Shown here piece after piece: positions 3,500-35,400 of a DNA stretch of 64,000 bases (the stretch's first letter is position 1; every line of letters begins with the position of its first letter). The notes under the pieces are model-generated. The model searched no databases. It was not told where the DNA came from and was given only the letters and a program-made list of their open reading frames with translations. Made by a program: the position numbers and the translations under genes. The DNA comes from Primula veris (lineage: Eukaryota; Streptophyta; Magnoliopsida; Ericales; Primulaceae). The stretch is taken from the NCBI GenBank assembly GCA_963682055.1, contig OY821745.1, positions 10,113,501 through 10,177,500 of the forward strand. Direction: 5' to 3'.

Positions 3500-5869
3500 A
3501 AAAGTTTGTCAAAAGTTAAAGCTGGTTCACTGCAGTATTCTCCGGCTTTGGAGAAAGCCAAAAAGCTTGAAGCGGGTTTGTCTCAGGAGCATCCAAGCTT
3601 CATTAAGGAAATGACACCTTTAGATGTTACAGACCATTTTTTTATGGTAAGACATTTGCCTGTTTAAAGTATAGGAGCTTATATAGTTGCAATTCTTTAA
3701 GCTTAGGTTATTTGTCGTCAAGAGTTGCAGTTCATATGTTGCCCAACCCAAAAATTAGCTTAAATCCTAAGTTTTTTAAGTTTTCGGTCCTGAAGATGCC
3801 TAAGGTATTAGAAACTTGAACCAAACAATTTTCTCAACCTTAAATGAGTATTTCTTGCTAGTGAAAACCCAAGGAGATATGCAATACTTGCTACCGATAT
3901 ATATATTATACATGGGTAGGAAATTGTAAAGTTGTGCTTTTAATCATGTTTCAGAACCAGCAACTAGAAATGAATGAGAATTAGTCAATAAACAAGTGAC
4001 GATACTCTTTTATTTTCCTTGAAATTATTTTCCTGTTTGTTGGTCAGAGATTTCCTCGCCAGTTTAGTAATTTGCATCTACCGGCTGGCGAAGTAACACT
4101 TGTAATTTTGGAGGACGAAAAGGGGAAACAATACAAAAGCAAGTATCTTCCTCACTGGGCCGCGCTTAGTGCTGGATGGAGACATTTTACAATTGTTAAA
4201 AGTTTGCGTGAACACGATGTTGTGGTTTTCCATTTGATACAGCCATTCACATTCAAGGTAAACATATCTGTTGTTTCAGCGTATCAAATATGCATTTGTA
4301 CAATTTGATAATATTTGCCACTGTCTTTTTTAAGGTACTTTAATCAGAACCAGCAAGAACAAATTTTGTATATATCTTCTCCTTAATGGACCTAGGAGTT
4401 GTTTAAACTGAAAAAATTGTAGGAAATATTTTAGAAATGACAGGTATTTTGACTTATAGAACCTTGATTAAAAGTTAAAACTAACAATTATTGCCGAAAC
4501 ATGTCTTATTTACAAAGTAGAGATATCTCTAAGAGGATGTTGTCAACTTTTTTTGCATATTAGGAATTTTTTTATATAAAAAAACTGGGAACTAAACAGC
4601 CAAATTCGGGCGTACCCCAACATGTTATAAACGCAAGTACAGTTTAGGGTATATAGACAGGAAAATCGCAAATATGCCTATTTATCTAAATTTTTGGTTA
4701 CAGCTGCTTATTACCTCTTTATCATTTTTCCCAATGTCATTGATGCTTATTCACTTGTCATTACTTTCAATTTAAGGTCTATATATTGCGGCCAGATGAT
4801 TTTGATCCGGTCGACAAAGAATCTATTATTCGGAAACCTATAGAATATTATCTCGGTAAGTATCTGTGATCGATTGTTTTGTTGTAGTAAGATCAGTTTC
4901 ATTTGTTTTTTTACTTTTGAGTAGTTGGTCATGAGCCTCAAATATGTCAGCTTTTCTACTTAATAGCCGCAGCAATACAACATATCCCTGCACATGTACA
5001 TACACAGATGGCTTAGGCAGTCTCACATAATGAATTTATACGAGGCTCACTGCCACTTTATTAATTTACATATAAATCTGTGTATATGCAATCATTACTC
5101 TTATTTTCGACGTTCAACTTTTTACTGCCATTCAGCTTTAACATTTTATTATTGCTATATAGAAAAGAAAAGAGGATGTAAGAAACCGAAAGAACATACA
5201 ACGGTTGTCAGACCAAAAGTCTCTCAAAAAGACGTTAAAGCAAACAACTTAACCCCGGAAAATCGTGACATCGCAGATAGCAGCTCACTGATCACAGATG
5301 AGGACAGATTTTCTAAAACTCTTTCCAGTATCAGAAAATTCAAAATCATCATTGAAAACAAAACAATCGACCCCGAAATTCCTAAACAAATCCGCTCTGG
5401 CTACTTCAACCTCTGCCATACCAGGAAAACGTTGCTACACCGCGACCTTATCAAGGGCATCAACAAAAAACTGGCAGCATCGATTATCTCGGAGACGACT
5501 AACATTGCAGATGCTATTACAAATAGTGAAATATCTACTCCTCGAGAAGATATAGCTTATTGGAACGCAGCTCTACAAAGTTTCGAGTTCCTTGGTATGG
5601 ATATAGGCTTTATTCGGGCTCGTTTGGACCGTCTTTTGGAAATCACTCGGGAACTTAGCAAGTCTATTTCTTCTTTGAAGAAAAATAAAAATGATGATGA
5701 TGATTCGGACCTGGTTCGCATCGAGGAGGAGATAAAAGAATACGAGAAAAAAGTTGAGGAGCTGAAACTTTTGAAGAAAAAATTAGAAATGAGACAGAAT
5801 GAATCTGTGGAAGAAGTTGTTGAAAGATTTAAAGTAATGTACAAGGAAGAAGCTAAGGCCCCATGGTAA
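3500..5869 (+). CDS. B3 domain-containing protein (At3g19184/At5g42700 type), 5' exons not found
   Basis: A putative nuclear DNA-binding protein. Four exons fit: 3500-3646, 4048-4257, 4777-4855 and 5163-5869, all with GT-AG introns and continuous phase. Exons 1-3 encode one B3 domain: HPSFIKEM, then RFPRQFSNLHLP, ALSAGWRHF and HDVVVFHLIQP, ending VYILRPDD. The last exon (about 234 codons) carries the family's C-terminal region (ISETTNIADAI, FEFLGMDIGFIRARLD) and a charged coiled coil, ending EAKAPW. Exon sizes match the minus-strand paralogue at 8955-12966: the 210 bp B3 exon is identical in length. The paralogue's first three exons (about 60 codons) have no counterpart here. The copia LTR lies only 315 bp upstream, so the 5' exons are either lost or beyond the window on the far side of the element. 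The gene may be a pseudogene, though its remaining frame is clean. Confidence 0.85.
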
Positions 5870-8954: not shown

Positions 8955-11900
8955 TCACCATGAAGTACTAGCTTCTTTCTTGAACATACTCTCGATTGTC
9001 TCATTCTCCACCATTAGCCCCTCGATCTCAGAATCTAACACTTTAACCCCTTCTTTCAACTCCAAAAGCCTAGCCTCAAGTGTTCTCATTTCCTCTTGTG
9101 CCTTGGCCCTTTCCAGTTTCTTATTTTCCAGAACAATTTGCGATTCAAAAACAAGGTTCATAAGCTGTTTGATTCTAGCACGAAGAAACGCAACATCCAT
9201 ACCCAACTTCTCAAACCCTTCGAAGGTTTGATCCCACGTCATAAGATTTTCTTTCGCATTTGAAAACCTGATAGCTCTTATAGCATCCGCGATATTAACA
9301 GTTTCAGAAATTACCCCAGAAATTAGACTCAAGTTTAGACCCTTGAGAAAGTTAACGTGAAGAAACTTGTTTTGGCTACAACAAAGATGATAGTATTTTA
9401 CTCGAAGATGTGGGGGTATTTTGGAATCAATTACTACCCCATCCACATGAATCTCAAAACTATCGATACTCTTTATGTTTTCAAAATCAGGTGCAGAATC
9501 TGAGAATCTAATCCCCTCGGACATTTCTGAGATAACATCATCACTATCATTTTCGTTTTGCCCTTTGCTCGTGCCAAGTTCAAAGTTCGAACACACGGTG
9601 TCTTTTCCATCGAGGTCGTCTTTGCAAATGTTTAGCGGGATAGGGTTGTCCAAATATCTATCTTCATAAATCTCCATAACATTTTGAGTTTGACCTTTGT
9701 AAGTAATTACAAGGAGAAGATGATTACTATAAGCATTTTAAACAGTAAATCATTCTATAAATTTGAGATATTTCGTAAAAAGAATTATATTGGCAGTTAT
9801 GGCTGAGCTAATAAATTGTGGTTTATAACAAAGAGGCTTGTTTAGTTCCAGGGTTCAACCTAATTATGTTTATTGCTTAGAAGATGTACAAAATCTGGTT
9901 GACCATCTGTATAGCTGATAAGTCATTCTGGTTTTATGTTCTGGAGAATGTAGAAGTTTTAAGCTTAATAAGCTCAGGTTTTTCTAAGCATGTCAATTGT
10001 CAACCGACTTGATGAAAAGAGGCAGCCAAACGAACAACTTTAAATTTAAAAACCAAGCTAAATTATTAATGAAGCTCAACTTACCATATTCGACACATGA
10101 TCGAGTCTGAGTATCTAAAGTTAGAAGCCCCATAGCCCCATCCACTTCGGACAAATTATTTGCTCTCACAATGTAAACCTACACAGGAATAGGAAAACCA
10201 GATACAAGCAATGTTTTCAATTCAATCGGCTTGTTAGGTTGCAGTTTTAAGAAAACAAGCTGGGATCTTTTAGCTTAAGAAAAAAGTTGGGTTCGTCCTG
10301 CTTAAAGCTACTAGCCTTTTCAGGCCAGAAAATAGAAATGCCCAACTTTTAACCAGATAAACAGTCCAATTTTAAAGCAAAAAATATACAAAAACTGGGA
10401 TTAAAGGCTACAACCAAACGAAAATAAATTCTTGAATTTGGAAAAACAAATGAGCCATAAAAAATAGTACCTTGAGCTTGCAAGGTTGAATCAACTGAAA
10501 AATCAATACATCTCCCTCAACCAACTTGTGCGCAATCGAAAATCCTCTCCATCCCGCACTTAGCCCATTTTTACGCGATAAATACTTTGTTTCGTATTGT
10601 CCTCCGCTTTCGTTGACCAAAACAACTTTGTGTTCACCTTCTTTCGGAAAATGCAGGTTGCAAAATGACTTTGGTAAACCCTGGTGCCCATAAACTAGTT
10701 AGTAATAAACAATCAAATCGTAAAATAACGAGATAATGTAAATGAGTAATGCTAGGTGTCAACCCAATTGCCAGATTACTTGAGACCATGTTCAGAAGAA
10801 TGTTAAAAATATGACAGCAAGATAAAGCTTTTTTGTAGAGCTTCAATAAGGCAGGTTACGCTTCGCGTAATATTTATTGCTCATAAATACAATAATATAG
10901 CTAAAGTTAAGTTAAACTACTAGTTAAGTTAAACACTAATAAGCAATAAAAAAATTGACATTAGCCCAATAGAATCACACACATACAAAATAGATGATTA
11001 TACCAAAAAACTAAACCTCACACATTTCGCGCTTTGATTTGTACATCTTTTTGCATCATCTGCGCTTTTTGCTGAAACTCTAATTTTTTTACCATTATAG
11101 GTAAAAAGCGCACTTCAGAGGGCAAAAATGCATGTTATTTACTACTAATATGTTTCAGAGTATGACACTTAGGACTTGTTTGGTTCCAGATTTTATGCTC
11201 AACTCTTTACCAGCTTACTAGCTTTAAGCTTTCATGAACCTAGATAATCTAAATAGTCATTCAGTCTTGAAGAAATCTCAGCTAGTATGCTAAAAAAGCT
11301 GCAACCAAGATATTGTTTCTTTAAGAGAAATTCTGGTCTTACAAGCCAAAATCCGCCTGTAACGTGTGATAAGAGCATCGGTTTAATACAGCTAGGGTAC
11401 TTTGATTGCAGATTTGCTTGAACCTCTTCAGCTCGCTTCATAGCTAAATTGTTGGTTTCGACTAAAGCCGAACACTTCTTTACCGGGACAATCTGTTTAT
11501 CCTTGATGCTTAGAGAAGCAAAAATTCATTGTTAAAAGATGACAAAATGTTGCATAAGTTTGGAAGAAGAAAAAATGGATGTTAATTTACCTTGTTGCTT
11601 TTTCGGTAACGTTGAAACTTACCTGTTAATGAATGGAAAAGATTTTACGTTAGTTAAAGATGAAGAAATTAGGAAAAAAACTTGCTACTAAAGCTCCCTA
11701 AAAACACTTTTGGTGATGACAAAAAACTAAAAGGGATCAACCACAGATAGTACATGCTACTGTTATTATTTTTTTATGATCTTAACTCCAAAATTGAAAC
11801 ATTTACATAATAAGATGGCTCAGGCCGACACAAGAATGCTTCCAGCTAGCCCCACGCTAACTACTTGACTCACTCTTTATAGAAAAAAAGGTCACAGCTA

Positions 11901-15125: not shown

Positions 15126-18100
15126 TTAAAGTACATTTTTAACTTCAAGGAAGTCGGAGCGCTCTTTGTTTGCAGCAGCAACATCATCGGGAGATGCAAC
15201 AGTCACCACTACACCTTTATCCTTCACAGCATCGATGGCATTTGCAAACTCCTTAAAGTCCTTGACACTAGTAAAGATGAAACACGAGAGATTTCATCAG
15301 GAAAATTATAAAAGAAAATGTGAAATATAGCTCAACCACCAGTAACCGGTTATAATTTTTTAGAACAGGTTGTAATTGTTCAATAAAACTCGAAAGATGA
15401 GAGATATCATATCAGGGAAAGCAAAATATGTGGGTATAGTTTAACAACTGCTGGACAGGTTATCTTCGTTCGATACAAGCTTGATAAAGGTAAAATATCC
15501 GTACAAAAATTATAACCTTTTTAATCCTGCCCAACGCAACATAAGGTACAAGCAGACATTAGTCTCCAACAAGCAGTATTCATAACCAATCACAAACACT
15601 TTGAAGTGTCATAAAAATGTCTCACGTTTTCGGCTTGTTTCGCGTCTGCCGGAATATTCATCCATAAGATAAATAGTCATCTATGAGAAAGAAGGGTTTT
15701 ACCTGGTTGATAATATCTCTTCACGCCTCTTTTGTCTTTCCTCGTCTGTCACTCCAAGCAAGTGTCGTAACAAACTGAAATATCCAAATGTCATGAATTA
15801 TGAAACGTATCCAACAACAAAATTGAATGAAAGCACAAGATATATATTACATTTTCCTCCCTGAACGTAGATGTATAAAGTACTGTGTGCATACACATAT
15901 ACAGCAACATACACGCAGCAGCAAGAGGGAGAGCTAAGGTTTTTTACTTACCTACTGTAACCTTTGGCATCTGGTAGCTGGTACGAATCCACATCACCAA
16001 TGGTCCCAATAATTGCTTTTGTAAGGGTATCATCGTCCATTTCTAGTTCGCGCAGGAACCCACCAGTTGCATCATATACATCAAGTGTCTTCAACAGATT
16101 TGGGTCCCGATAAGATAAGAAAGAAAATACCCCTGAAAAAGAATGACCAACACGTAAGAACCTCGAAATTCACAGCTAAAGTTGTCTGCTTAATAAAAGT
16201 TATGAATATCCAGGAGCTTTCAGAACTTTCCGCAAGCTATAACCCCTGTTAACATTTTTAAAATTACTTCCTACAGTTTTTGCAAGTCTATATATTATAT
16301 ACACGAAACCCTCTCACTAAACTCACCTGAATGAGTATCAAAATCACAGAAACCTCCATAAGCACCGCCACTAACACGTACACGATCCCACAACCATGTG
16401 TTACTAATATATTTCGAAATAACATATGCACTACCGTTAAGCTCATAGCCAGTCTCGTACAAATTAGCTGCTTTTCCAACATAGTTAACCTGCAAAAGAT
16501 AAGAAGGTTAAACTATGTAATGTCTTGAACTAATAGAATATTTTACTCATTATCTGAAACAAGTACAGAATTTTCTCTAAAGAAAATTAAGAAATAAATA
16601 AAGAACAAATTTTAGACAGTGAATCTCACCTGAGTAGGCACCACAATGGCTTCATTTCCTAATGGAAGTCGGGCATTCCAACTAACTGGTTTAACAGGGG
16701 AAGAGCTTGGAAGCAAGTCAAGAAATTTGCCGATATATTTCTCTGAGTTTGCAAGGTTTTTCCCATCAGCGGTTAAATTAACTAAGCAATCACTCCTTGA
16801 AAGGAAAGACCTGCGGATCTCTTCAAGAGATGATGAGATCCCTTCCCAGTCCTCATCAACTTTCTTTTCAAGAGATTGCAGAAATTCTAGGTAGCTGTGG
16901 AAAACCCCATGTGAAGAGTGAATTAGTTAATTTTTTTTAAGCACGACACAATTTAAGGCTGTAGTCAGTTAGAACCATTTCAATGACTTACAGGTCGTAG
17001 AAACAACTATGGTGTAGTTGTACTTAGTTCTAGACTATGAACCACGATAGAAAAAAAATAACAAAGATTGCACACTTGAATGGATTATCCTGATTATCAC
17101 ACAAAGCAAATTTTGATTCTGAGCTGCAGATTAAAAATAAGATGGAATGCCACAATATTTCCAACTCATTAGCTAATGGGACCTTAAAAGTATCGGTAAT
17201 TCGAATTTGTCCCAATATCGTCCTTTTAACCCGTTCGGGAGAATTTAAGTATCAGCTTACAGGTGTTGGAAGCAACTATGGTTTACTTGTGCTTAGATCC
17301 GAACAATGAACCATATTAAACTAAACCACGGCATATAAAAATTTGAGCACCGAAATTGAGTTGCCTGAATTAAACATAAATTGCTTGCATTCTGAAAAAG
17401 ATAGATAGACCAACCTGACACCACCCATTTGTTCGGAAACCCATCCAGCAACATTTAGCTTTGCATCCATTCTTGCAGCTGCAATGCCATGTCCGCTTCC
17501 TCTTATACGATTCTGTAATGAGATAGGTTATGGAAAATTAATTCTAGTTAGTCTTGCCTTGTTGTATTTGATGTGGTGATGATTAAGTTTTTAATATAGG
17601 AATAGAAAACGTTTAAATTCCTGATCCTGGGACCGCATTACATACCTCCATTCTTGCTTTGCTTTGGGAAACAAACTGCTTGAATCGCTTTTGATCAGTA
17701 AATTGAACTTCTTGGAGAACACGATTCACCTATAATTACACAATCAATGAGAATTTTTTCTTGTAGTCCATTATTTAGATAACAAGACAGTGTGCATGGC
17801 AGCAGGGCTAAGAAATCACTGAAGAAGTAAGAATTAAACAGTATGTAGCTACTAGCTAGTGTATTACTTTCAGCAGGGCTGTGAAAAAAAAGGTTTTGCC
17901 CACATTTATTTATGTTATTTATAGTTTTGGACGGTGCTCAAGTAGTGCAATATGCAGAGTACTACAAGATTGAAAGAACACTGAAGACCGCGATGAAAAA
18001 TAACATTCAACTGACAAAATATTTTAAGAAAATAAGTAGACTGGGTGATAGCAAGCCCATATTACTTAAATGTCAGAAGCAAGAAACTATGACACGATAT

Positions 18101-21100
18101 CCATATTGTGACATAAATATTGGTTGTAAAAAAAAAGTATGTACAGAATAAAAAAATGATATACCAGGCTAAACAAATCTTCAGTCCGTTCTGACATAGC
18201 TTTGCCTCGAACAATAATATGACTAACAGGATCTTCTTTTCCCCTAACTGATGATGTAAACGGGTAAACTGATATCCCACCGGTTTTCCTTCCAATTAAC
18301 TGATTCAGTTGAACAAAATCCATGTCTTTTGTACCCATCTCCAGCAATGATTGACTGCCAAGTAACATGATAAGGAGCAATTTGGACTCAAACGCAAACA
18401 TATATAACACACTTTATTGAACAGATATGCAGAAAATTGCAAAATATAACATTCATACTTGAATGTAGTGCCATAAGGCACTAGAGTCTAGACTCTAGGG
18501 TTAACAAAAGGTAGCTAGAGACTCGGTATGGTTTATCACTACCCAATAGGCCAGTACCTATATTAAAATGTATTTATTTTCCTCAAGTAGAACAAGAAAA
18601 TGCTCTGTGGACCTAAAATCTGAAACAGCTTTATCCAGCAATCCACACCATACAACTATCAAACTTACGAGCAAATCTGGCTACCGGATGAACCGCCCAA
18701 CTAGGTAATGGAAGGATCCACGAAAAGCTCAGCTCAAATTTCCCAGAAAAAGAACAATTTTTTAGGGCAACTACCAAGATTTCTCATGTACAAAAGAACT
18801 ACCAGGATTTCTGGAATAAAGGGGAAACTCGTGCATATATAAAAGGCACTTCACCACTAAAATGTAGGTAATAGGCTGCATACGAGAACAATTATTAGAA
18901 GCTACATTGTTTGTTGGTATCAAATATGACCACATGAGTATTCTGGTGTACCCAAAACAAAATTAGGTTGGGTACTAGAAAGAGGCACCAATAGACCACT
19001 TTGTTTGTATTTTCTTTTTAGTGTAACAAAAAGATTGGTGGTTACATCCAGTAAGGGAAGAGCAACTCTTGTTGAACAACTTATAAAATAATCTATACGC
19101 AAGATAAAAAGACCTATAACAGCAGAAAAAAACACAGAAACTAATCAAATATTTGTGAATTATATTAAAGGTCCAAGTGATCTTACCAAAAAAGTGGTAC
19201 AAGAGGAAGAAGCTCTTGCTTCACTGAACTCATATTAAAAGCCACCTCGGCATACAAGACATCGTTGGTAAAAAGGTCATGTCGCAAAGTCTTCACCCCG
19301 TTTATATCCCCAACCTAAATTCACCAAAAAAGGATGTCAGCATAAATATTTGAGAGCAAATTATGGAGATTTTTAGGAACCAGTAAGACAATGATGATTA
19401 CCTCTGTGGGGACGAGTATAGGGCTTTTAGGAATGTCTACTAATGAGAGACTTGGTACAGCCTTAAGGGCTTCTGGTGGGTCCGGAGTTTCCTGCTTTAG
19501 TCGCAATTCAACCGTGTCACGTGCTAGCTCGGCAAGATCCTCCTCAGTCATGCTTGCTTTAACTTTATTTAAAATCTCTTTCTCAGCAGCTTCATCTCGA
19601 GAAGCCTTCTCTGGATCAGGCTGAGCAAAGAAAATTTTCAAATTTGCGTATTACAGTTACAATATAAAAACAGTGTTGAACATAAATGCCGGTACTTTTG
19701 GAAACACTCACCTGCATCTCAACTGTTACACGGTGAGGGTTACTCAAAATATACTGTTCAATCAAAGGAGCGAAAACAGCTTTTGAGCCTTTCTCAGCAA
19801 TTCTGGCTTTCAAGTCCATTAGGGGTTTTTGATATTTTAGTGGCTCAAATGGATCCATATCATAAATCCATTTTCCCTGCAAATTCCAAAAGGAAAGGAG
19901 GGTATGTCAAATTTAGAGACGAAACAAGGTTGCCAGAATTTGGTGGAAATTACAAAGTATAAGGTGAAGTACAGCAATGATCCCCATACTTCGGATCAAA
20001 TTTCTATCTGACCCCCGTAGTTTAAATCGTAATAAAAATCATCCCCTTTATGTGAAATCTTTTGGTCCCCATAATTTAAGTAAAAACTATCAATTCCCAT
20101 AATTTCAACTTTTAATAACTAATTATCCCACATCGTATAGAACATATAACATCAGGAGTCCACACTATGATCACCAGAGTAAGGGACAGCCAGTGTAAGT
20201 TATTGAAATTACGGTTGACCAACACGGTTGTAACTGAAACTACAAGGGCCAAATGTGGAATTTATTCAAACTAAAAGGATCATTGGTGTGCCAGCTGAAT
20301 CTGTAGGACCAAATATAATTTTTTTTAAATATCAGGACTATTACTTACAATGGAGCGAAGCATCAAAGCAAGGCCACGAGGGAACGATCCAGTATTATTT
20401 TCTCGAAGAGAGAACTCAATGGTGTTCATAGATGCCTCAACCGCATCTGAATTAAAACCTTCCTCGGCTAAATTTTTAAGTGTGTCCATAATAAGCTCTT
20501 CTACTTTTCGAATATCTTCTTCAGCTACACCTTTAAGACCAATACTAAACTGTGGTTGAAGAAGCTCGTCTTCAATACCTCCCCCAACAATGGCTTCTCC
20601 TAAACCACTCTCTAGAAGAATTTTCCTTAGAGGAGAAGCCGGGGTACCTAACATTAAGTGGTCTAGAAAACCAAAAGCTAGCTCAGTTTCTAAGTCTAGA
20701 GGCTTATCGTGTAGCAACCAGTTGAGACACACCATATTCTTCTTTTTCAAGTCGGTGCTTTCGGAAGCGGGATATTTCTCAATAATTCTAAATGGTTCCG
20801 AAAATAGTTTTTGAGTCTTTATTGTCGACTCGTCGCGAGATGAACTTGCTTCAAACATGTCTAGGTATTCTGTTCAATGAAATAAAGCATATTAGGGACA
20901 ACAAAGAGGAATGCATCTACGGATTTCAGGATGTGCTAATTAAGATACTTATTATAAACAACATTCATTTTTTTAAGAATTTTGTGCACTATCAATTACT
21001 CTCTTAAATAAAATGGAATTTGAAATGTTATACATGTAAATCTAATCACAGCTAGTGATGCTTATTATTTTGATTCTTGCTCTTCTAAACATCATGTGAA

Positions 21101-24100
21101 GAATGCAAAGGGTTGAGGATCAAAAAATTTAAACACTAAATTATATTATGCAGATTTAACACGTACTTGAGATGTTTGTGAACTATACATCGACTTATGT
21201 TAGTGATATAAGCCCATAGATGTTCACATATTCATTCAATATGATCAAGTCTCAAAACTATTTGACTGATTTGGTGCCTGCATCAATTACTTTCATAAAA
21301 AATGTCATATAAGAAAAGAGAGACTTGTCATACTTTTACAATTCCAACACAATGAGTCATGAAGAAATGATAATGCTAAATATTATCACCAAAGAAAACA
21401 CACCACTCAAAATGCGAAGCCGTTCGCTGGGATCATCATCGCCATAGAACCATATCCTTGAATTGCTAGGATGGTAATGCTTCTGGTGAAAATCCTGCAA
21501 AAACAGAAGAGAATTAAAGATTATGCAGTTAACTACAAAACCCATAAGAGCGAGAATTACAACTTAAATGTTGATTTGGGTATTTTAAGGTACAGTTAAG
21601 CTCTACAAAAAATAATAATCCATAATTCAATTCCTGGATACAGAATAATTGTGAACAATCTCATGTTGGAACTTAAGTTTTCCATGAAACCACAATCTCT
21701 GCTGTATACTTATAGAAAGCAATATATAATCTTTAATGGGCACAAATTTCCACAAGCTTGCTCCTTGGTATTAGTAATTTTGTTTCATAAAATTGAAATT
21801 GTATTGTAAAATTCTAATTTACACAATCACGTACAAATAACAAAACCTACAACTTATGGATTTAAACCCTTTAATAAGATATCTGCAACAAACCTTGAAT
21901 TTTTCAAATGTGAGTTTAGGAATAACTTCTGGATCACCACCACTGTCAACACCATATGTATTGTCTGGGAAAAGGGCCTGTCAAGTGTAACACCAACACA
22001 TAGTTATGAAAGAGAATTCAACTAAATACTACCAAAAGTGCAAAACATCTACTAACGCCTTCACAAATGCATGGATCATACGTCGGGATTTCACTTTATT
22101 TTATGAAGTGTCTCGACTCCTAAATACTTGACACAACACTAGCAACATGACCTTGATTCGCTAAAACTCATCCGTAACTAAAAAAATTATGCATTTACCC
22201 TGAGATCTGAATATTAGAATTTTTTTACAGCAGACCAAAGTGCATATCCAATGAATTTATTACTCAGAAAAGTAAAACGTTCAACCACACTGTATGAAAG
22301 AACCAATTTTGATTTTTAAAATAATGCATAAGAAAATTCTTTGAACCTTCGAAATGAACAAGTGGTAAACTTTATTGCTAAGACAGAAAAAAATCAGCCA
22401 CATGAGTTCTTCACATATTTTGTAAATCACTTGAAACAATGACAGCGTTTGAGTACTTGCCTGTTGAGAAGTCCGACCTAGTATGTTATCAGGCTGAGAA
22501 TAAACACCTTTCATCTCGTTAAATACAACACCTATCAGGAAACGATTAGTTAGAAATACGGAAAATCACATTACATTTGATTCAGCTTTGTTTTAATTTA
22601 TAAAAAAAAAAAAAACCTTTGTAAGTTATGTCCTCGGTGGGGTTATTTAGCTCATAATGCCATCCCTCTTGCTGAAAAGTCTGAAAGTCATCCACACATT
22701 TCGGGAAGAAAACAGCATCCAAGTATACATCGACCAAGTTATAGAAGTCCTATTCAATAGACAAAGACGTCAAATTAGAGTGTAAAATAATTTAGGTGAA
22801 AAATCACATCCTTTATTTTGTTACATAAAACCTTACCTTAGAATTTGTGGAAGCAACTGGATAGCAAGTTCTATCAGGGTATGTGAATGCATTTAGAAAA
22901 GTGTGTAGGCTCCCTTTTAGCAATTCAACAAATGGTTCTTTCAAAGGATATTTTCTTGAACCACACAATACACTGTGCTCCAATATATGAGGAATTCCGG
23001 TTGAATCTTTTCTGCATTAATGAAACAAATAAACAAAATTCAAAATGCTAAATTTATACAAGAGCATTTACAAAGTACCGACTCATGATTAAGGAAGTTA
23101 AGAAATGCTACTTTATAAGGGCAATATCTACTACGCAACAACAAAATGAAATTCTTTTTTCAAACATGATCACTAGATAACTAATTTAAAAAAGTATCAG
23201 CATGAGATTGTACCATGATAGGAACAAACAAATAAAAAAGTGAGCCCTCCTTAAAAGACATAAGTTGAATTCTAGACTTACGGTGGGGTCCGGAAAACTA
23301 TGCCAAAGACCTTATTTTCATCGTCGTTTGATACTGACATGATCTCAGCACCAGTCTTTTTATGCTTGTAAAGAACAGCTTTTGACTTACACTCTTCAAT
23401 AAACTGTTCTGTTACTTTCTCGAACCCTAGCTTCTCAGCAACATCATCTTCAGCTCCATAAATTTCTGAAACAAACACATACCCCTCCTTCAGCAAAAAA
23501 AATGTCCACCACCATTTCAGTACCCAACTTAAAAATCAAAAAAATTAAATACATGCATATACAAGAATGTCAAGTGTAACACCATTACGAAAGCAAGTTT
23601 CCAACTGTGAGCTGCAGATTAAAAATAAGATGGAGTGACAAAAAAAATTGTAAATCATTCGCTAATGGGACCTCAAAGTAATTCCAATTTGATTGGTGAC
23701 CCATTTCGGAAAATATTATATGGCGACAATATTATATACTAAGTCTACATGTGATGAACGTGGAACTAAAGGGAATTACTTGATTACTTCCCAACCAAAA
23801 GATTATGGCAATTTCTTTTGTCACGTATTAATTTTGTATCATAGTTTTAGTAACCACTACCACCACTTAGTAATCAATATATATATATAGACAGAACATA
23901 GAAGCATACACACACACATATGCACACAAAGAACACACACACACACATATATATGTACACACAAAGAACACACACACATAATATAGTAGTAAGTGAAAAC
24001 TGTTCCCGATTATAAACACTGATACCAAAGCAAGAGCTCAATAAAGCCTTTTAGCAGATTCAATTAAACCTACTTCCCATACTAAATAATCAATATATAC

Positions 24101-26618
24101 AGACAGAACTAGATAAATACACACACACAAAGACACACACACACAAATATATACACACACACAGAACACACACACAAACAGTAGTACTAAGTGAAAATAA
24201 ATTCCCAATTATAAACACTAACAGCAACGCAAGTGCTCAATTAAGCCTTTTAGCAGATTAAATTAAACTACTTACACTACTTAATAATCAATACACACAC
24301 ATACACACACATATATATATATAGAGAGAGAAATTGTAGTACTGTACCTGGAGAAGAGTGTGAGGGTGACGTATCAACAGCTCTAAAAGGAGAAACGGCA
24401 GAGAAGTGCCTTCTAAGGTGTAACGAGGGCCTGGAGGTGGATACAAGGGTGACGTGGCGGCAGAGGAGAGATCGATGGCGGCGGAGCGGTGGCAGGAAAG
24501 TCGAGAGACCGAGCTAGAGAATAGCCTTGTGCACACCAGAGGCGAGGAGAGAGACCGGAGTGCCGATTCCCTCTCCATTATTCTAGTGAGAGAAAGTCAC
24601 GGATTGATTGAGAGGGGTTTTGAGCAGATTCAACTAAACTACTTCCACTACTTAGTAATCAATAGTTCATTATACATACATAGATACATACACATACACA
24701 CAAATTGTAGTACTAAAATGAAATTTCTTTGTAATTATAAACATTAATAGCAAAGCTAGGGGCTTAAAACCAAGCATTTGAGCAGATTAAATAAAAGATA
24801 CTTCCCCTAATAAATAATCAATATATACGTGTGCACACACACATACGCATACACGCGCACACACACACACACGTACGCACACACATGTATAATATACATA
24901 TATAAATACATTACACATAAAAACTGTAGTATTAATTACTACGTGAAAATTGCCTAATTATAAACACCAATAGCAAAACAGGGGATCAATAAAGCCTTTT
25001 AGCAGATTAAATTAAACTACTTAGTAACCAATATATATATGTATCTATATCTAAGTAGAAATTGTAGTGTTATACCCGGAGAGGATTGAGAGGGTGACGT
25101 GGCAAAAGCTATAGTAGGAGAAACCGCAAAGTGTCTTTTAAGGTATATCGAGGGCCTGGAGGTGGATACGAGGGTGATGTGGCGGCGAAGGAGAGAGCGG
25201 TGGCAGGAGATGCGAGAGAAGAGCCTCGTGCCTACGAGCGGCGATGAGAGAGAACGGAACGCGACTTCCCTCTCCATTTGTAGTGAGAGAAAGTCGCAGA
25301 TTGGTTGAGAGGGATTTGAGAGAAGATGATGATATAGATATATATGTATATATATATAAGCCTTTTAGTAGATTAAACTAAACTACTTCAACTACGTAGT
25401 AACCGATAGATCATTATACATAAATAGATACATACACACAAATTGTAGTACTAAAATGAAATTTCTTCCTAATTATAAACATTAATAACAAAGCTAGGGT
25501 TCAAAACCAAGCCTTTGAGCAGATTAAATTAAATTTACTTCCCCGACTTAATAATCAATATATATAGACATAAAATAGATACATATACACACATACAAAC
25601 AAACTGTAGTACTAAATGAAAATTGTTCTTAATTATTAAAACTAATAGCAATTAGCAAAGGAGGAGCTCAATTAAGCCTTTTAGCAGATTTTTTTTAAAC
25701 TACTTAGTAACCAATATACATATATAAATACATATATAGACAGATAAATAGATACATGTACAAATTGTAGTGTTTTTTTTACCTGGAGAGGATTGAGAGG
25801 GTGACGTGGCAACGGCTCTAATAGGAGAAACAGAAAAGTGTCTTTTAAGGTGTAACGAGGGCCTGGAAGTGGATATTAAGGTGACGTGGCGGCGGAGGAG
25901 AGATTGGCAGCGGAGCGGTGGCAGGAGAGGCGGGAGACCGAGCGGGAGAATAGCCTCGTGCATACGAGCGGAGAGGAGAGAGAACATAGCGCGACTGCCC
26001 TCTCCATTTCTAGTGAGAGAAAGTCACGGATTGGTTGGAAGGGGGTTTCGAGCAGAGCTCAAGCAGAAGATGATGATATAGATATATATAAGCCTTTTAG
26101 CAGATTAAACTAAACTACTTCCACAACTTAGTAATCAATTGTTCATTATACATATATAGATACGTACACACACATACAACCAAATTGTAGTACTAAATGA
26201 AAATTTCTTCCTAATTATAAACGTTAATAACAAAGCTAAGGCTCAAAACCAAGCCTTTTAGCAGATTAAATTAAACCACTTCAACTACTAAATAATCAAT
26301 ATATAGACATAACATAGATACATACACACAAACTGTAGTACTAAATGAAAATTCTTCTTAATTATGAACACTGATACCAAAGCTAGGGCTCAAATAAGCC
26401 TTTTAGCAGATTACGTTAAACTACCTATCTACTTAGTAATCAATATATAAAGACAGAATATAGATACATACACACACATATATAGACAGAACAAACAAAC
26501 TGTAGTACTAAGTGAAAATTGTTCCAAATTATAAACACTAATAGCAAAGCAGGAGCTCAATTAAGCCCTTCAGTAGATTAAATTAAACTACTTCATCTAC
26601 TTAGTAATCAATAATTCA

Positions 26619-26655
<37 letters not shown>

Positions 26656-27993
26656 TAGATACATGTATCTATATATATAGATGTAGAAATTGTAGTGCTT
26701 TTTACCTGGAGAGGATGACGTGGCAACGGCTCTAATAGGAGAAACGGCAGAGAAGTGTCTTTTAAGGTGTAACGATGGATTGGAGGTGAAACCAAGGGTG
26801 ATGTGGCGGCGGAGGAAGGCGGCAGAGTGGTAGGAGGAGAGGCGAGAGACCGAGCAGGAGAGCAGCCTCGTGCATACCAGAGGTGACGAGAGAGACCGGA
26901 GCGCGGCTGCCCTCTTTATTCTAGTGAGAGAAAGTCGTGGATTGGTTGAGAGAGGTTTCGATAGAAAATGATGATATAGATATATATATAAGCCTTTTAG
27001 CAGATTAAACTAAACTACTTCCACTACTTAGTAATCGACAGTTCATAATACATATACAGATACATACACACAAATTGTAGTACTAAAATGAAGTTTCTTC
27101 CTAATTATAAACATTAATAACAAAGCTAGGGCTCAAAACCAAGCCTTTTAGCAGATTAAATTAAATTTACTTCCCCCACTAAACAAATAAAGAATCGATA
27201 TATATAGACAGAACATAGATACATACACACACACAAACTGTAGTACTAAGTGAAAAATGTTCCGATTTATAAACATAAATAACAAAGCTAGAGCTCAATT
27301 AAGCCTATTAGCAGAATAAACTAAATTACTTCCACTACTTAGTAATCAATAAATTGATATATACACACACAGACACACACATATATATAAACAAAAAAAC
27401 AAAAAAAACACTGCAGTACTAAGTGAAATTGTTCTCAAATCAATTATAAACACTAATAGCAAAGCTAGGGCTCAATAAAATCTTTTAGCAGATTAAATTA
27501 AACGTACCTCCCCTATTAAATAATCATTACATATAGACAGAACAAACACACAAATTGTAGTACTAAGTGAAAATTGTTCCCAATTACAAACACTAACAGC
27601 AAAGCAGGAGCTCAATTAAGCCTTTTTAGCAGATTAAATTAAACCACTTCCACAACTTAGTAATCAATAGTTCATTATACATATATAGATACATACACAT
27701 ACACACTACTCAAATGAAATTTCTTTCTAATTATTATCACGAATAACAAAGCTAGTGCTCAAAACCAAACCTTTGAGCAGATTAAATACTTCCCCGACTA
27801 AATAATCAATGCATATAGACAGAACATAGACACACACACACACAAACTGTAGTACTAAGTGAAAATTGTTCCAATTTATAAACATAAATAACAAAGCTAG
27901 GGCTCAATTAAGCCTATTAGCAGAATAAAAATAACTACGCCCACTATTTAGTAATCAATTTATAGACAGATATATGTATATATACATACATAT

Positions 27994-28030
<37 letters not shown>

Positions 28031-28584
28031 GTAGAAATTGTAGCACTAAAAGTCAAAAAATGAAAATTGTTCCTCATTATAAACTCTAATAGCAAAGCAA
28101 GGGCTCAATTAGTAAGCAATATACATAGATATATACATATAGATAGATATAGATTTAGAAATTAGGAGTAATGTACCCGGAAAGGATTGAGAGGGTGACG
28201 TGGCAACAGCTCTAATAGGAGAAACTGAAAAGTGTCTCTTACGGTGTAACAAAGGCGGAGGAGAGACCGGCGGCGGAGCAGTGGCAGGAGAGTCGAAAGA
28301 GAGAGAGAGAGAGAGCGGGGCACGGCTGCCCTCTCCATTTTTAGTGAGAGAAAGTAGGCGGATTGATTGAGAGGAGTTTTGAGCAGATTAAACTAAACTA
28401 CTTCCACTACTTAGTAATCAATAGTTCATTATACATAGATAGATACATACACACAAACCGTTGTACTGAAATGAAATTTCTACCTAATTATAAACATTAA
28501 TAACAAAGCTAGGGCTCAAAACCAAGCCTTCGAGAAAACTAAATTAAACCTATTTCCCCTACTAATAATCAATATATATAGATG

Positions 28585-28623
<39 letters not shown>

Positions 28624-28932
28624 CAGAACACGAACACAAATTGTAGTACTAAGTGAAAATTGTTCCTAATTATTAACACTAATAACAAATCCTTTTGGAA
28701 GATTATATTAAATTATTTCCACTACTTAGTAATCAATAGTTCATTCAATATATTTCCACTACTTAGTAATCAATAGTTCATTCAATATATATAAAAATAA
28801 AGATATATTATGTAGAAAGTTTAGTCCTAGGTGAAAATTGTCCCTAATTATACACAATAACAGCAAAGCAAGAGCTCAATAAAGCCTTTTAACAGATTAA
28901 ATTAAACTACTTCCACTACTAACTAGTAATCA

Positions 28933-28965
<33 letters not shown>

Positions 28966-29220
28966 TTGTGGTGCTATACCATGAGAGGATTGGGAGGGTG
29001 ACGTGGCAACAGCTCTAATAGGAGAAACTGAAAAGTGTCTCTTAAGGTGTAACGAGGGCCTGGATGTGGATATTAAGGTGACGTGGCGGCGGAGGAGAGA
29101 TCGACGGCGGCGGAGGAAGGCGGCGGAGCGGTGGCAAGAGAGGCGAGATATTGAACGAGAAAATAGCCTCGTGCATACCAGCGGCGAGGAGAGAGAACGT
29201 AGCGCGACTGCCCTCTCCAT
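15126..29220 (-). CDS. PREP1: presequence protease (M16C metallopeptidase), mitochondrial/chloroplast, 19 exons
   Basis: Degrades cleaved targeting peptides in mitochondria and plastids. Exons: 29220-28980, 23465-23282, 23011-22837, 22749-22617, 22531-22461, 21977-21894, 21494-21404, 20869-20349, 19876-19712, 19620-19402, 19314-19187, 18354-18165, 17729-17646, 17512-17415, 16894-16630, 16489-16327, 16132-15952, 15774-15703, 15267-15126. The sum is 3207 bp (1068 aa), near the ~1080 aa of Arabidopsis PREP1. Residues 1-80 are an Arg/Ser-rich transit peptide with no acidic residue after the MER start. The inverted zinc motif HILEH is at about 150-154. The EGWHYELN helix supplies the distal glutamate. 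The C-terminal half keeps GGISVYPFTSSVRGK and VRVSGGAYGGF. The protein ends DFLEVKNVL. All introns are GT-AG except intron 5 (GC-AG). Intron 1 is 5.5 kb and contains five further exon-1 copies. Copy B could be an alternative first exon. Confidence 0.96.
17108..17232 (+). repeat. dispersed intronic repeat, copy 1 (pair with 23592-23707)
   Basis: Lies in PREP intron 14. It shares GAGCTGCAGATTAAAAATAA and following GATGGA with the segment at 23592-23707, then CATTAGCTAATGGGACCT versus CATTCGCTAATGGGACCT, in the same orientation. It is probably a small mobile-element relic. Confidence 0.65.
19973..20289. mobile_element. candidate MITE in PREP intron 8
   Basis: The left end CAATGATCCCCATACTT and the right end (reverse complement CAATGATCCTTTTAGTTTG) form imperfect terminal inverted repeats. 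Internal lines such as GACCCCCGTAGTTTAAAT resemble the pyrimidine-rich ends of plant Mutator-like MITEs. No target duplication was identified. Confidence 0.38.
22459..22460 (-). other. GC splice donor of PREP intron 5
   Basis: Exon 5 ends ...TCT CAA CAG and the intron starts GCAAGT. The next exon (GCC CTT TTC CCA...) continues in frame after a normal CAG acceptor. The nearest GT is 4 bp downstream and would break the frame. The remaining donor bases (CAG before, AAGT after) match the consensus strongly, as is usual for GC-AG introns. Confidence 0.85.
23592..23707 (+). repeat. dispersed intronic repeat, copy 2 (pair with 17108-17232)
   Basis: Lies in PREP intron 1 between exon 2 and the exon-1 array. 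It has the same orientation and order of words as the copy in intron 14. Confidence 0.65.
23881..24190. repeat. AC/TA-rich microsatellites at the edge of the PREP array
   Basis: Runs of ACACAC and ATATAT recur at about 23881-23960 and 24118-24170. Further runs inside the array lie at about 24835-24900, 26615-26660, 27985-28026, 28583-28622 and 28935-28966. Each belongs to the microsatellite section of an array monomer. Confidence 0.9.
24348..24578 (-). pseudogene. PREP exon-1 copy A (nearest exon 2), frameshifted
   Basis: Starts MERESALRSLSSPLVCTRLF like the outermost copy and ends at the same type of donor (CTCCAG|GTAC). It is 231 bp, a multiple of three, whereas splicing to exon 2 needs 3n+1. 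Compared with copy F it lacks 13 bp in the CCGCC-rich stretch after SCHRSAA. Spliced to exon 2 it would read out of frame. Confidence 0.9.
25076..25277 (-). CDS. PREP exon-1 copy B, intact frame, possible alternative first exon
   Basis: The ATG at 25277 opens MEREVAFRSLSSPLVGTRLF, followed by Arg/Ser-rich transit-peptide sequence (LLRRHITLVSTSRPS, HFAVSP, ATSPSQSSP). It runs to a donor (CCGG|GTATAA) in the phase required by exon 2. It is 202 bp (67 codons plus one base), 13 codons shorter than copy F through in-frame losses. It is the only inner copy with both start and frame preserved. It has only about 60 bp of leader homology upstream and no known promoter, so use as a first exon is an inference. 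Confidence 0.7.
25783..26007 (-). pseudogene. PREP exon-1 copy C, frameshifted
   Basis: The canonical ATG at 26007 opens MERAVALCSLSSPLVCTRLF but reaches a stop within the exon (after SSAATSP). The 225 bp length is in the wrong phase. An internal ATG at 25987 (MFSLLSARM) reads the downstream RRHVTLISTSRP frame in phase through the donor. It gives a scrambled N-terminus, so a functional transit peptide is unlikely but not excluded. Confidence 0.85.
26706..26919 (-). pseudogene. PREP exon-1 copy D, start codon lost (ATG to ATA)
   Basis: The whole exon is readable in the right frame and phase (214 bp, 3n+1; RSLSSPLVCTRLL through SPIRAVATSSSP to CTCCAG|GTAAAA). The initiator is ATA, and no in-frame ATG occurs in the exon. 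Confidence 0.88.
28177..28338 (-). pseudogene. PREP exon-1 copy E, internally deleted and frameshifted
   Basis: Has ATG (MERAAVPRSLSLSLS), an expanded CT/GA run and a donor (CCGG|GTACAT). It is shortened to 162 bp by deletions, and the frame at the donor is wrong (needs 3n+1). The readable frame lacks the HFSVSPIRAVA block. Confidence 0.88.
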
Positions 29221-29300
29221 TATTCTAGTAAGAGAAAGTGAGGGGTTATTGAACAGAGCTTGAAGAAGACGATGATAATAGTTATGCTATCTTATATGGA

Positions 29301-29897
29301 GGGTGAAATGCAAATAACCCCCTGAAAGTATGGATTATTTGTGCAATTAACCCCCCACACACCATCAAACTTTTGCAATTAATCGACAATGCCATATTTT
29401 AAAAGAAGATGTGCCTCTGTAGGTATAAAACACAATCAGAAAAAATATGTTTAGCTCTGAACCGTTTGATCCAGTGACCAAACACAGTTTTTCTGACTAT
29501 CAGATGCTCATTTTCCTTTTTTAAATGATGTGATTTTACACTTGATGGTCCGTTTTGATTGGTTTTTCATCATTTATATTAGATATTCATGCATATCAAG
29601 TAACTTTTTACTAAATAACACAAAAAAATAGTTTTTCTCACTCAAAATGATTTTTTTAAAATAAAGCTTATTCTCGTTGCTTTTTTACGATAATTGTTAT
29701 CATACTATTTATATTTTATATCATACAAGTAATTTTGTAAAATGAACAAATGAGTAAAAATTTAGGCCATTTTAAAGATGAACTTGGGGGGTCTTTGCAA
29801 AAGTTTCATAGCTTATTTGGGTTGATTGTAATAATTATTAGTTTATTGGGTTATTTGGAAATGACTCATAGTTCCAGGGGTTATTTGCATTTTACCC
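29301..29897. mobile_element. Mutator-like MITE 80 bp upstream of PREP start
   Basis: The left end is GGGTGAAATGCAAATAACCC. The right end, reverse-complemented, is GGGTAAAATGCAAATAACCC, and similarity continues for about 50 bp. The flanks are TTATATGGA (29292-29300) and TTATATGTA (29898-29906), a 9 bp target duplication with one mismatch, as expected for Mutator-like elements. There is no transposase in the 597 bp. It sits in the PREP promoter or distal 5' leader. Confidence 0.82.
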
Positions 29898-30099
29898 TTA
29901 TATGTATGCATTATGCATTTATGCATTTTACCCTTATAATTATTTATTTTTGTGAAGGGAAATAAGGATAGACGTGGCTTGAGCAAGAAGGCTCGTTTCT
30001 ATTTCATGTTAATTGCACTGATGGTGTACTGGTCTGAAGTAAGGTACACTAGTTACTCCTATCGAGTCTTGTTTAGTAACATCGTTTGAAGGTCGAGAT

Positions 30100-32406: not shown

Positions 32407-35400
32407 ATGGAGTTATCAAGCAACAAGGACGAAATTGCTTTCGAAGCCCCACCACACTTCCGTGCCTACAAAGACGGTCGCATGGAACGTTTCTTCGGAA
32501 CCGATCATGTGTCACCATCTCAAGACCCCGTCACATGCACTCTCTCGAAAGACGTCGCGGTTTCTCCTTCTCTGTCCTTACGCTTGTTCAAGCCCAAAAA
32601 TGTTACTAAAAAGGTTCCGGTCCTTGTTTACTATCATGGGGGAGGTTGGTGCTTCGGGTCGGCTTTTTGCCCAACTTATCATGATCATCTCAATGACTTG
32701 GTCGCTAAAGGCGAAGTGATAGGGGTGTCGGTTGAGTATAGGCTTGCGCCGGAGTATCCGTTGCCGATAGCGTATGAGGATTCTTGGGAGGCTCTCAAGT
32801 GGGTCGCTTCTCATTCCGATGGACAAGGTATTAAGTGTTTGTTTGGTTATACCCTAGGTAACACGGATACTTCGGAAATGACGATCTATCTGGTACGGTA
32901 CGTATGTGATACCGATACCCTTTTAAAGTTAGGACGTATCAGATAATTATATTGGTAGTAAAAGCAAATAATTTTATTGGTAATAAAAATAAATATGATA
33001 ATAAGAAAGCAATAGATACTAAAACGGAATACTATAATAGTCACTGATAGAACACAATTAAAAACATTTTGATCTTCTTATATCTTTGAGTTTGTTTATT
33101 TTTCACTGAAATATGCTAAACCTATGCATATCGATGTCATGTTCACCGTACTAATGTTTAGAACTAATAATTCATCTTTGAGCATGACTTTAATTTATTT
33201 TTTCTTTATGTACAAATACTATTATACATTTTATAAATCTTAATATGCATTTTATAAAATTGTGTCAAAATAATGGCCTATCTTAAACTTACCGTATCCA
33301 AGTATTTTAAAAAATAAATCATACATCGTACTCGTATCGTAACAGGTACGATACTCGTAACCATAGCCATACAACTTAGATGATTATAAATACTCCATTA
33401 AGAAAATTAGGGTGGATTTGAGTTTGGAGGAGAAAGTTGGTATCATCGACTTTGAAACTTCTAGCATTTTCAGGTCAAACTAAGAAATTTTAGGACTATT
33501 ATGCCAGTTTATTTATATCTCAGGACTCTGAGTTTGTTTTTGAAAATAAAATAAAAAATAAACCAATGTTGAGTCTTGTCTGGATTGCTTTACAGATGTA
33601 TGTAGATATTGATATATAATTTTTATTTTTTTTGGTAACATGTTGAGATATTTGACTTGTCTGTAAATAACTTGTCTGTAAATAACTTTAATTAATAATC
33701 TTTGCCCTTTGTTGTGAATTAGTATAAACCGTGTAGAAGTAGTTGCAGACAGTACAAGTACTCCACAATTATGAAAAGTAATCAAACCAATGAAAATTTA
33801 TGAATTTGGCTCGGTTTGGTTTGGTTTGGAGCAAATTAATACATGCAACCAAACCAAACCACTAAAAGTCGGCTTGATCGGGTTCAGCTTAATCAGTTTA
33901 AACTATAATTAATAATAAAATCAAAATACATTTTAGTAAGCATTAACGTTTAATTGATGTTACAAAAAAACATGTTAATGGAATATAACAAATGCTTACG
34001 TTAAACATTAGAAATAGAACCTCTTTTACGAATAACGAACAAATGAAACAAACAAAATGACACAAAAAATTAAGTTATTTATAAATTATAATTATATATA
34101 TAATATTAATGCATATTACAATCAATTCGGATCGGTTTCAAAAACAGTCAAACCGTAATCTAATTAATTAAATCGGTTTGTAAATTTTTAAACCAAACCG
34201 AATAGCAACCAGTTTGGTTTGATTTTTGATTGGTTCGGCTTCATTCAATAGACTTATACTCACCCGGTCACGCCTAACCGCAACCCTTATCACCCTATTA
34301 CAAATTAATGTTTAGTGCTGATATAATTTATGTATACAGATTACAGACCCATAAAGTAGGTTTGGTACAACACTACTACAATTTGATCAGTAGTTAGTAG
34401 CTACCATAAGTATGTTGGAAAAAATGTGTAGGAAAACATGTTTTAAACATGGTTGTTCCAAACTGGTCAGGAACCATCTTTGAGTCAATTTTTAATGCGA
34501 CTCCTCAGTTTTTCTGAGGCCATACTCTATGCGTTTGAGTAGCTCGTGCGACGAGCTTCGCAACGGTATATCGCATGACCAATTCGGAGGAATGGTGTGA
34601 ATGATAATTGGACTCGAATGTTGGTACTCGAAAGAGGGAAAAACCGAAATCTGGAAAATGGAGTAGAGAGTGGGAATAAACCATGAGGGTTATCCCACAT
34701 TGGAAAATCAAGGTTGATTTTTACTCTATATATACAAGTCCATCCCATATAGTTGGTAAACTAATAAAGTCCACATACCCATGAGTGGGTCAGTGTGTAC
34801 CACACACGTGCGCGCTCGCTCGGGTCACAGGCCGCGGGATTTGGAATTTGGGGAATGTCTTGGGTCTCGGGTCTTGTACTAATCTGAAAAGGGACTTTTG
34901 CATATTTGCAATAGCAGTCCCTAGAGTTCCAGAAGGTTTGAGGCGGATTCTGGGGATGTAACTCCCAGAAGTAAATGACCACATTTAATTCTGCGGTTTC
35001 AGAATCCTCTATAAAGAGACAGCCATCCTCTCACATTCTAACACACATGAAATCGGTATCTTCTCTCTAACATTCAAAAGCAGCATATATTTTTTTTATT
35101 CATAGCACTTAGAAACCAGAGAGAACCACCCACTAAAAGCTCGACTTAGACTCGTCGCCAGTTTCCGACGAGTCTTCCGAGAGACGTTGTACCTTGGGAT
35201 CGAAGCGCCAACGCAACCAGAAACCTTAAGGTGGTTGGGCGAATATCGGCTAAGGGCATACTGTTAACAGTAGCCTCGTCTGATTGTTTTTCTATTCTGT
35301 CCATTTATTTTTCCGCTCTTAAATTCTGTTTTTACATTCTGTTTTTCCAATTCAGTATTTTAATATTCTGTCCTTAGCTGTAGCTTTTATATTCTGTTTG

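Follow-up and report, generated by a model that had tools for sequence, protein, structure and literature searches.

The 64,000-nucleotide stretch of Primula veris DNA analysed here (contig OY821745.1, positions 10,113,501 to 10,177,500; hereafter the window, to whose numbering all coordinates refer) carries on its minus strand a complete gene for the presequence protease PREP. The first exon, which codes for the organelle-targeting peptide, is present in six homologous copies (E1 to E6) upstream of a single exon 2. Our reading, which the codon statistics on balance favour, is that the array of six arose by tandem duplication, that at least three copies (E1, E4 and E6) served in parallel as alternative first exons for the one exon 2, and that the array is now decaying by birth and death. 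Copies, reading frames, repeat structure and codon statistics were read directly from the DNA, and the features are the following.

15126..23465, minus strand: PREP enzyme body, exons 2-19, an open frame without stop of 988 amino acids
23282..23465, minus strand: exon 2, the common acceptor exon, beginning at 23465
29221..29283, minus strand: leader of E1, the part common to the other copies according to the alignment (start approximate)
28980..29220, minus strand: E1, ATG, 241 nt, continuing in frame into exon 2, probably the working exon
28177..28338, minus strand: E2, ATG, 162 nt, frameshifted relative to exon 2 with the first stop at codon 67
26706..26919, minus strand: E3, ATA replacing ATG, 214 nt, continuing in frame into exon 2
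25783..26007, minus strand: E4, ATG, 225 nt, frameshifted, stop at codon 44
25076..25277, minus strand: E5, ATG, 202 nt, continuing in frame into exon 2, fitting neutral drift
24348..24578, minus strand: E6, ATG, 231 nt, frameshifted, stop at codon 90
23961..28925, minus strand: spacers, made of a tandem intron unit of about 134-160 bp, of which 24 units, whole or partial, separate and follow the exon copies (unit search)
27664..27680, minus strand: junction of units E2.3 and E2.4, where a seventh exon copy was likely lost (unit tree and identities)

The spliced PREP translation has an intact frame and contains HILEH, which we take to be the inverted zinc motif HxxEH of the plant presequence protease PREP (M16C). 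Four Pfam families (M16, M16_C, M16C_assoc and PreP_C) were found in the body, all above their curated cut-offs. Among the best 120 matches, the top eight whole-length relatives, at 84-85% identity, come from Camellia, Actinidia, Diospyros, Bertholletia and Sarracenia, which are genera of the Ericales. In the protein search, the names in the source records label PREP relatives as chloroplastic/mitochondrial. The intron after the fourth PREP exon is apparently of the GC-AG type (CAG/GCAAGT, window 22461/22460).

A search of the assembly (436.5 Mb, 34 contigs) with a 288-bp DNA query around E4 returned seven matching pieces (six candidates, all scored), corresponding to E1 to E6 with E2 split in two; with this query no exon-1 copy was found outside the array. 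All copies share one orientation, with start-to-start distances of 699-1419 bp, and pairwise identities over exon plus flanks range from 68.9 to 83.0% across the 15 pairs. Divergence of this extent means that the array is old and represents neither a chance resemblance nor a duplicated piece of the assembly. A 170-aa query from the enzyme body gave a single match genome-wide (one candidate), and on this ground an origin of the exon-1 copies as remnants of whole-gene duplicates was rejected. The initial annotation, drawn up by a model from the letters of the window, had described six copies of PREP exon 1 in the same orientation upstream of an exon 2 starting at 23465, each with an ATG or its remnant and a splice donor, and had stated that only the targeting exon is multiplied while the enzyme body is single; all of this is borne out. 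Corrections concern the extent of the homology and, as set out below, the reading frames. In the alignment, the homology of E2-E6 to E1 starts just about 60-65 bp upstream of the ATG, and beyond this leader E2-E6 are preceded by the intron unit, whereas E1 has its own, distinct flank.

A GT donor is present in 6/6 copies and an ATG in 5/6, E3 having ATA. Entry into exon 2 in frame requires an exon-1 length of 1 mod 3, counted from the ATG position. This applies to three of the six copies (E1, E3 and E5), and ATG and frame are combined in two (E1 and E5). Normal splicing of E2, E4 and E6 leads to stops at codons 67, 44 and 90, respectively. Relative to E1, E4 is 16 nt and E6 13 nt shorter, both differences lying within a CCG-rich stretch. 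The leaders of E1, E3, E4 and E6 (window 24348-29283) have a pyrimidine-rich end and a TAG directly before the start-codon position, resembling a splice acceptor; the corresponding triplet is TAA in E2 and TAC in E5.

For the codon analysis, all copies were read in the E1 frame and a codon model was written for the purpose. Private changes at codon positions 1, 2 and 3 amount to 1, 1, 8 in E1, 1, 1, 4 in E4 and 3, 2, 10 in E6, and to 3, 7, 5 in E2, 5, 5, 8 in E3 and 6, 2, 3 in E5. The third-position share is thus 22/31 for E1, E4 and E6 versus 16/44 for E2, E3 and E5 (Fisher p 0.0047). A mutation bias towards third positions shared by all copies is an unlikely cause, because E2, E3 and E5, which act as a control, lack the excess and CpG sites do not explain it. 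A single omega over the six copies was estimated at 0.34, with omega = 1 rejected (twice the log-likelihood difference, 2dlnL, 29.0; p 7e-8). On a star tree, omega = 1 was rejected for E1 (omega 0.09; 2dlnL 13.75), E4 (0.10; 11.77) and E6 (0.27; 8.75), and was not rejected for E2 (0.53; 1.32), E3 (0.55; 1.81) and E5 (0.79; 0.20). With the maximum-likelihood tree and three others, rejection occurred on 4/4 trees for E4 and E6, on 3/4 for E1 and on 0/4 for E2, E3 and E5. The observed statistic was matched by 0/40 neutral simulations for each of E1, E4 and E6. Conserved PREP residues, defined from 18 related PREP peptides picked among 120 listed, are kept at 37/44 positions in E1, 36/44 in E4, 32/44 in E6, 30/40 in E5, 24/33 in E2 and 24/39 in E3.

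These data suggest that E1, E4 and E6 experienced protein-level constraint after separating, while E2, E3 and E5 fit neutrality. Because E4 and E6 appear constrained yet are frameshifted now, they were likely long in use and broken recently; if the frameshifts are real, they must be young compared with the branches on which they lie. E1 is likely the working exon in this haplotype, being the sole copy that is both intact and, by the codon statistics, constrained. E1 and E4 are separated by 15.5 silent and 4.5 replacement changes and agree at 70/74 aligned codons. The proposal in the initial annotation that the copies provide different targeting therefore gains no support; with nearly the same targeting peptide in E1 and E4, any benefit would more probably lie in expression than in targeting.

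The structure of the spacers bears on how the array grew. The intron unit was found nowhere in the window besides 28925-23961. A tree was calculated from 19 of the 24 units, five short partial ones being excluded. In this tree, the units directly upstream of E2, E3, E4, E5 and E6 form one clade together with unit E2.3 (support 89), from which it follows that exon and spacers were amplified jointly as composite blocks. Unit E2.3 is situated in the middle of the double-length gap between E2 and E3, and its downstream neighbour E2.4 is nearest to the post-exon units E6.1 (88%) and E3.1 (87%). With E2.3 resembling a pre-exon and E2.4 a post-exon unit, a lost copy is the simplest reading, and a seventh exon 1 was probably once present and then deleted. 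The possibility that a dispersed element had captured exon 1 was considered and rejected, since the exon was multiplied jointly with its leader, its donor, the start of the intron and the intron repeat, and since the E4 query found no exon-1 copy elsewhere in the genome.

Several observations weigh against a history of parallel use. Four of the six copies are unable to code for PREP through the normal exon-2 acceptor, and the frame is kept in 2/5 of the copies other than E1, about the chance level of 1/3, so that frame retention was dropped as a sign of use. On a rough donor matrix, the usable copies E1 and E5 have the lowest donor scores (0.39 and 1.22) and E3 and E4 the highest (4.17). The length of the CCG-rich stretch, in which the frameshifts of E4 and E6 sit, varies among all copies except between E2 and E4. 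The grouping of E1, E4 and E6 was chosen post hoc, after the data had been seen; for E4 alone the third-position excess (4/6, p = 0.10) is not significant, and heterogeneity of omega among the six copies is at p = 0.065. On one of the four trees the test value for E1 was just 0.55; this miss falls on the E1-rooted tree, where the branch of E1 would be inseparable from its sister branch. The exons of E2-E6 are not better conserved than the adjoining spacer units (mean Jukes-Cantor distance 0.197 versus 0.155, 10 pairs). A reason for this may lie in more frequent homogenisation of the spacers, and gene conversion between copies could have mixed their histories. Among the best 120 matches of either protein search, where a sequence from this or a near species might have shown which copy is used, there was no near-identical PREP, the best whole-length match being at 85% and N-terminal fragments at 71% over the whole query.

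Several of these points are what one would expect if the array were a by-product only, in which expansion of the intron-1 repeat carried exon 1 along, E1 was the working copy throughout and the five others had been dead or idle since they arose. We regard this as a possible but less probable account. It fits the joint multiplication of spacer repeat and exon, the lack of the E1 upstream flank in E2-E6, the four copies that cannot now code for PREP with an in-frame share near chance, and both the conservation of the exon, overall no better than that of the spacer, and the borderline heterogeneity of omega. It does not predict that neutrality is rejected for the terminal branches of E4 and E6 with the star tree as well as with all four others, nor the preponderance of silent over replacement changes between E1 and E4. 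Of the two suggestions in the initial annotation, the by-product is supported as regards the mode of growth, jointly with the intron-1 repeat as seen in the units and their tree; alternative first exons are supported as history for E1, E4 and E6, on the evidence of codon constraint, although four of the six copies, E4 and E6 among them, now fail to code for PREP with the normal acceptor.

That E1 and E5 are both live today, each distributing PREP differently among the organelles, is unlikely. ATG and frame are combined in these two copies, and E5 lacks 13 of the E1 codons and differs at many residues (53/66 aligned codons agree); however, E5 has no third-position excess, its omega is close to that of drift, and it has lost consensus residues including an Arg near the end of the peptide. 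Use of E6, and of E2, through a candidate second acceptor 22 nt upstream of exon 2 (window 23466-23487) is very doubtful. This acceptor has a T-run before its AG and would place copies of length 0 mod 3 in frame, so that E2 and E6 would be open into the enzyme. E4, on the other hand, would still stop at codon 44, the peptide downstream of the frameshift is read in a frame unrelated to the conserved one, and the private changes of E6 in that half (2, 2, 5 by codon position of the E1 frame) lend the shifted frame no support. Finally, an error of assembly or sequence, whether it concerns the array as such or just the frameshifts of E2, E4 and E6, is given hardly any weight. The frameshifts do fall in the CCG-rich stretch where copy lengths differ, but copies differing by 17-31% are not a duplicated contig piece, and differences of 13 and 16 nt are atypical of read errors. 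The artefact against which the initial annotation had cautioned is thereby cleared for the array itself; copy divergence does not extend this to the single frameshifts.

Returning to the reading of parallel first exons in decay, a mechanism can be proposed in which start sites, splicing, timing and present use are deduced from the features above. Unequal crossing-over between the intron-1 repeats of about 150 bp would generate blocks consisting of leader, exon 1 and intron start, each of which would supply a start codon for translation, the targeting peptide and a splice donor in the phase required. A block with its own start site would then be a ready alternative first exon for the single enzyme body. 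The copies would differ in the place or time of transcription start and not in protein destination, as proposed for PEP1 of Arabis alpina. The same unequal exchange would also delete copies, and slippage would break frames: the frames of E4 and E6 were likely lost not long ago through slippage in the CCG-rich stretch, the decay of E2 and E3 would be older, the seventh copy has probably been deleted, and E5 is still in frame yet fits drift.

Directly upstream of the E1 leader lies a further element.

29300..29898, unstranded: dispersed repeat with 27-bp inverted ends (89%), at least 112 pieces matching it across the genome (from scoring 40 of 436 candidates)

This repeat is located about 80 bp from the ATG of E1 and has CATATA on either flank. 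It could have cut E1 off from an older promoter. Elsewhere in the window, two open reading frames (ORFs) on opposite strands, 4994-5866 (plus strand, 291 aa) and 8958-9677 (minus strand, 240 aa), are alike in sequence and both weakly DUF724-like (E 4e-06 and 3.6e-05), below the Pfam cut-off. A neighbouring ORF at 32407-32943 (plus strand), oriented away from PREP, has an alpha/beta hydrolase (carboxylesterase-like) domain.

For genome annotation, the array calls for caution: the six first exons look alike, a gene model could choose any one of them, and four are unsuited to exon 2. If the proposed history is true, it raises directly the question whether plants keep spare promoters or start exons through birth and death at the level of exons, and also the question how short intron repeats would drive this process. 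With the phrases used, the open-licence literature yielded neither a first-exon array for PREP nor one of comparable size in any plant. A single close case from plants came up, PEP1 of Arabis alpina, the FLC orthologue, which has two tandem copies of exon 1 (1a/1b) in front of one exon 2, giving the same protein from different start sites (PMC3527215; PMC7927791). There, as here, a partial tandem duplication comprises exon 1 with parts of the 5' region and of intron 1, exon 2 is common, the proteins are the same and there is little homology upstream of the copies; the block duplicated in Primula likewise takes in the leader and part of intron 1 along with exon 1. Unlike PEP1, which has two copies with proven transcripts, PREP has six, likely once seven, most of them broken, the use of their starts is deduced from DNA, and the exon codes for an organelle-targeting peptide. 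A plant gene with alternative first exons, one of which encodes a transit peptide, is also seen in AGPS1 of barley and wheat (PMC6155376). In that case the other first exon has no predicted transit peptide, so that the location of the product changes, and the passage at hand mentions no array of duplicates.

The best-known first-exon arrays are those of vertebrate clusters in which proteins are diversified; in UGT1, GCNT2 and PCDH, numerous first exons stand in tandem and evolve by birth and death (PMC1885805). The PREP array resembles these clusters in its tandem, same-strand, homologous first exons in front of one constant set, with pseudo-exons among working ones, and in the marks of birth and death, namely composite duplication, decayed copies and a likely deletion scar. 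It departs from them in that most of its first exons are not open and fitting to the constant exons, as the counts for start codon and frame given above show, and in spacers made of a short intron repeat. In UGT1, the first exons diversify the substrate domain, whereas here constraint appears to keep the targeting peptide, the sole part multiplied. It is conceivable, though we consider it rather improbable, that the locus is a UGT1-style bank of first exons maintained in a plant housekeeping gene for promoter choice alone, with E1, E4, E6 and perhaps E5 still alive in at least some haplotypes, specifying nearly the same targeting peptide, and the intron repeat acting as the engine that makes and removes them. 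The PREP array is best read as a set of interchangeable first exons in decay through birth and death, and as a counterpart among plants of both the Arabis alpina PEP1 duplication and the UGT1-type clusters.

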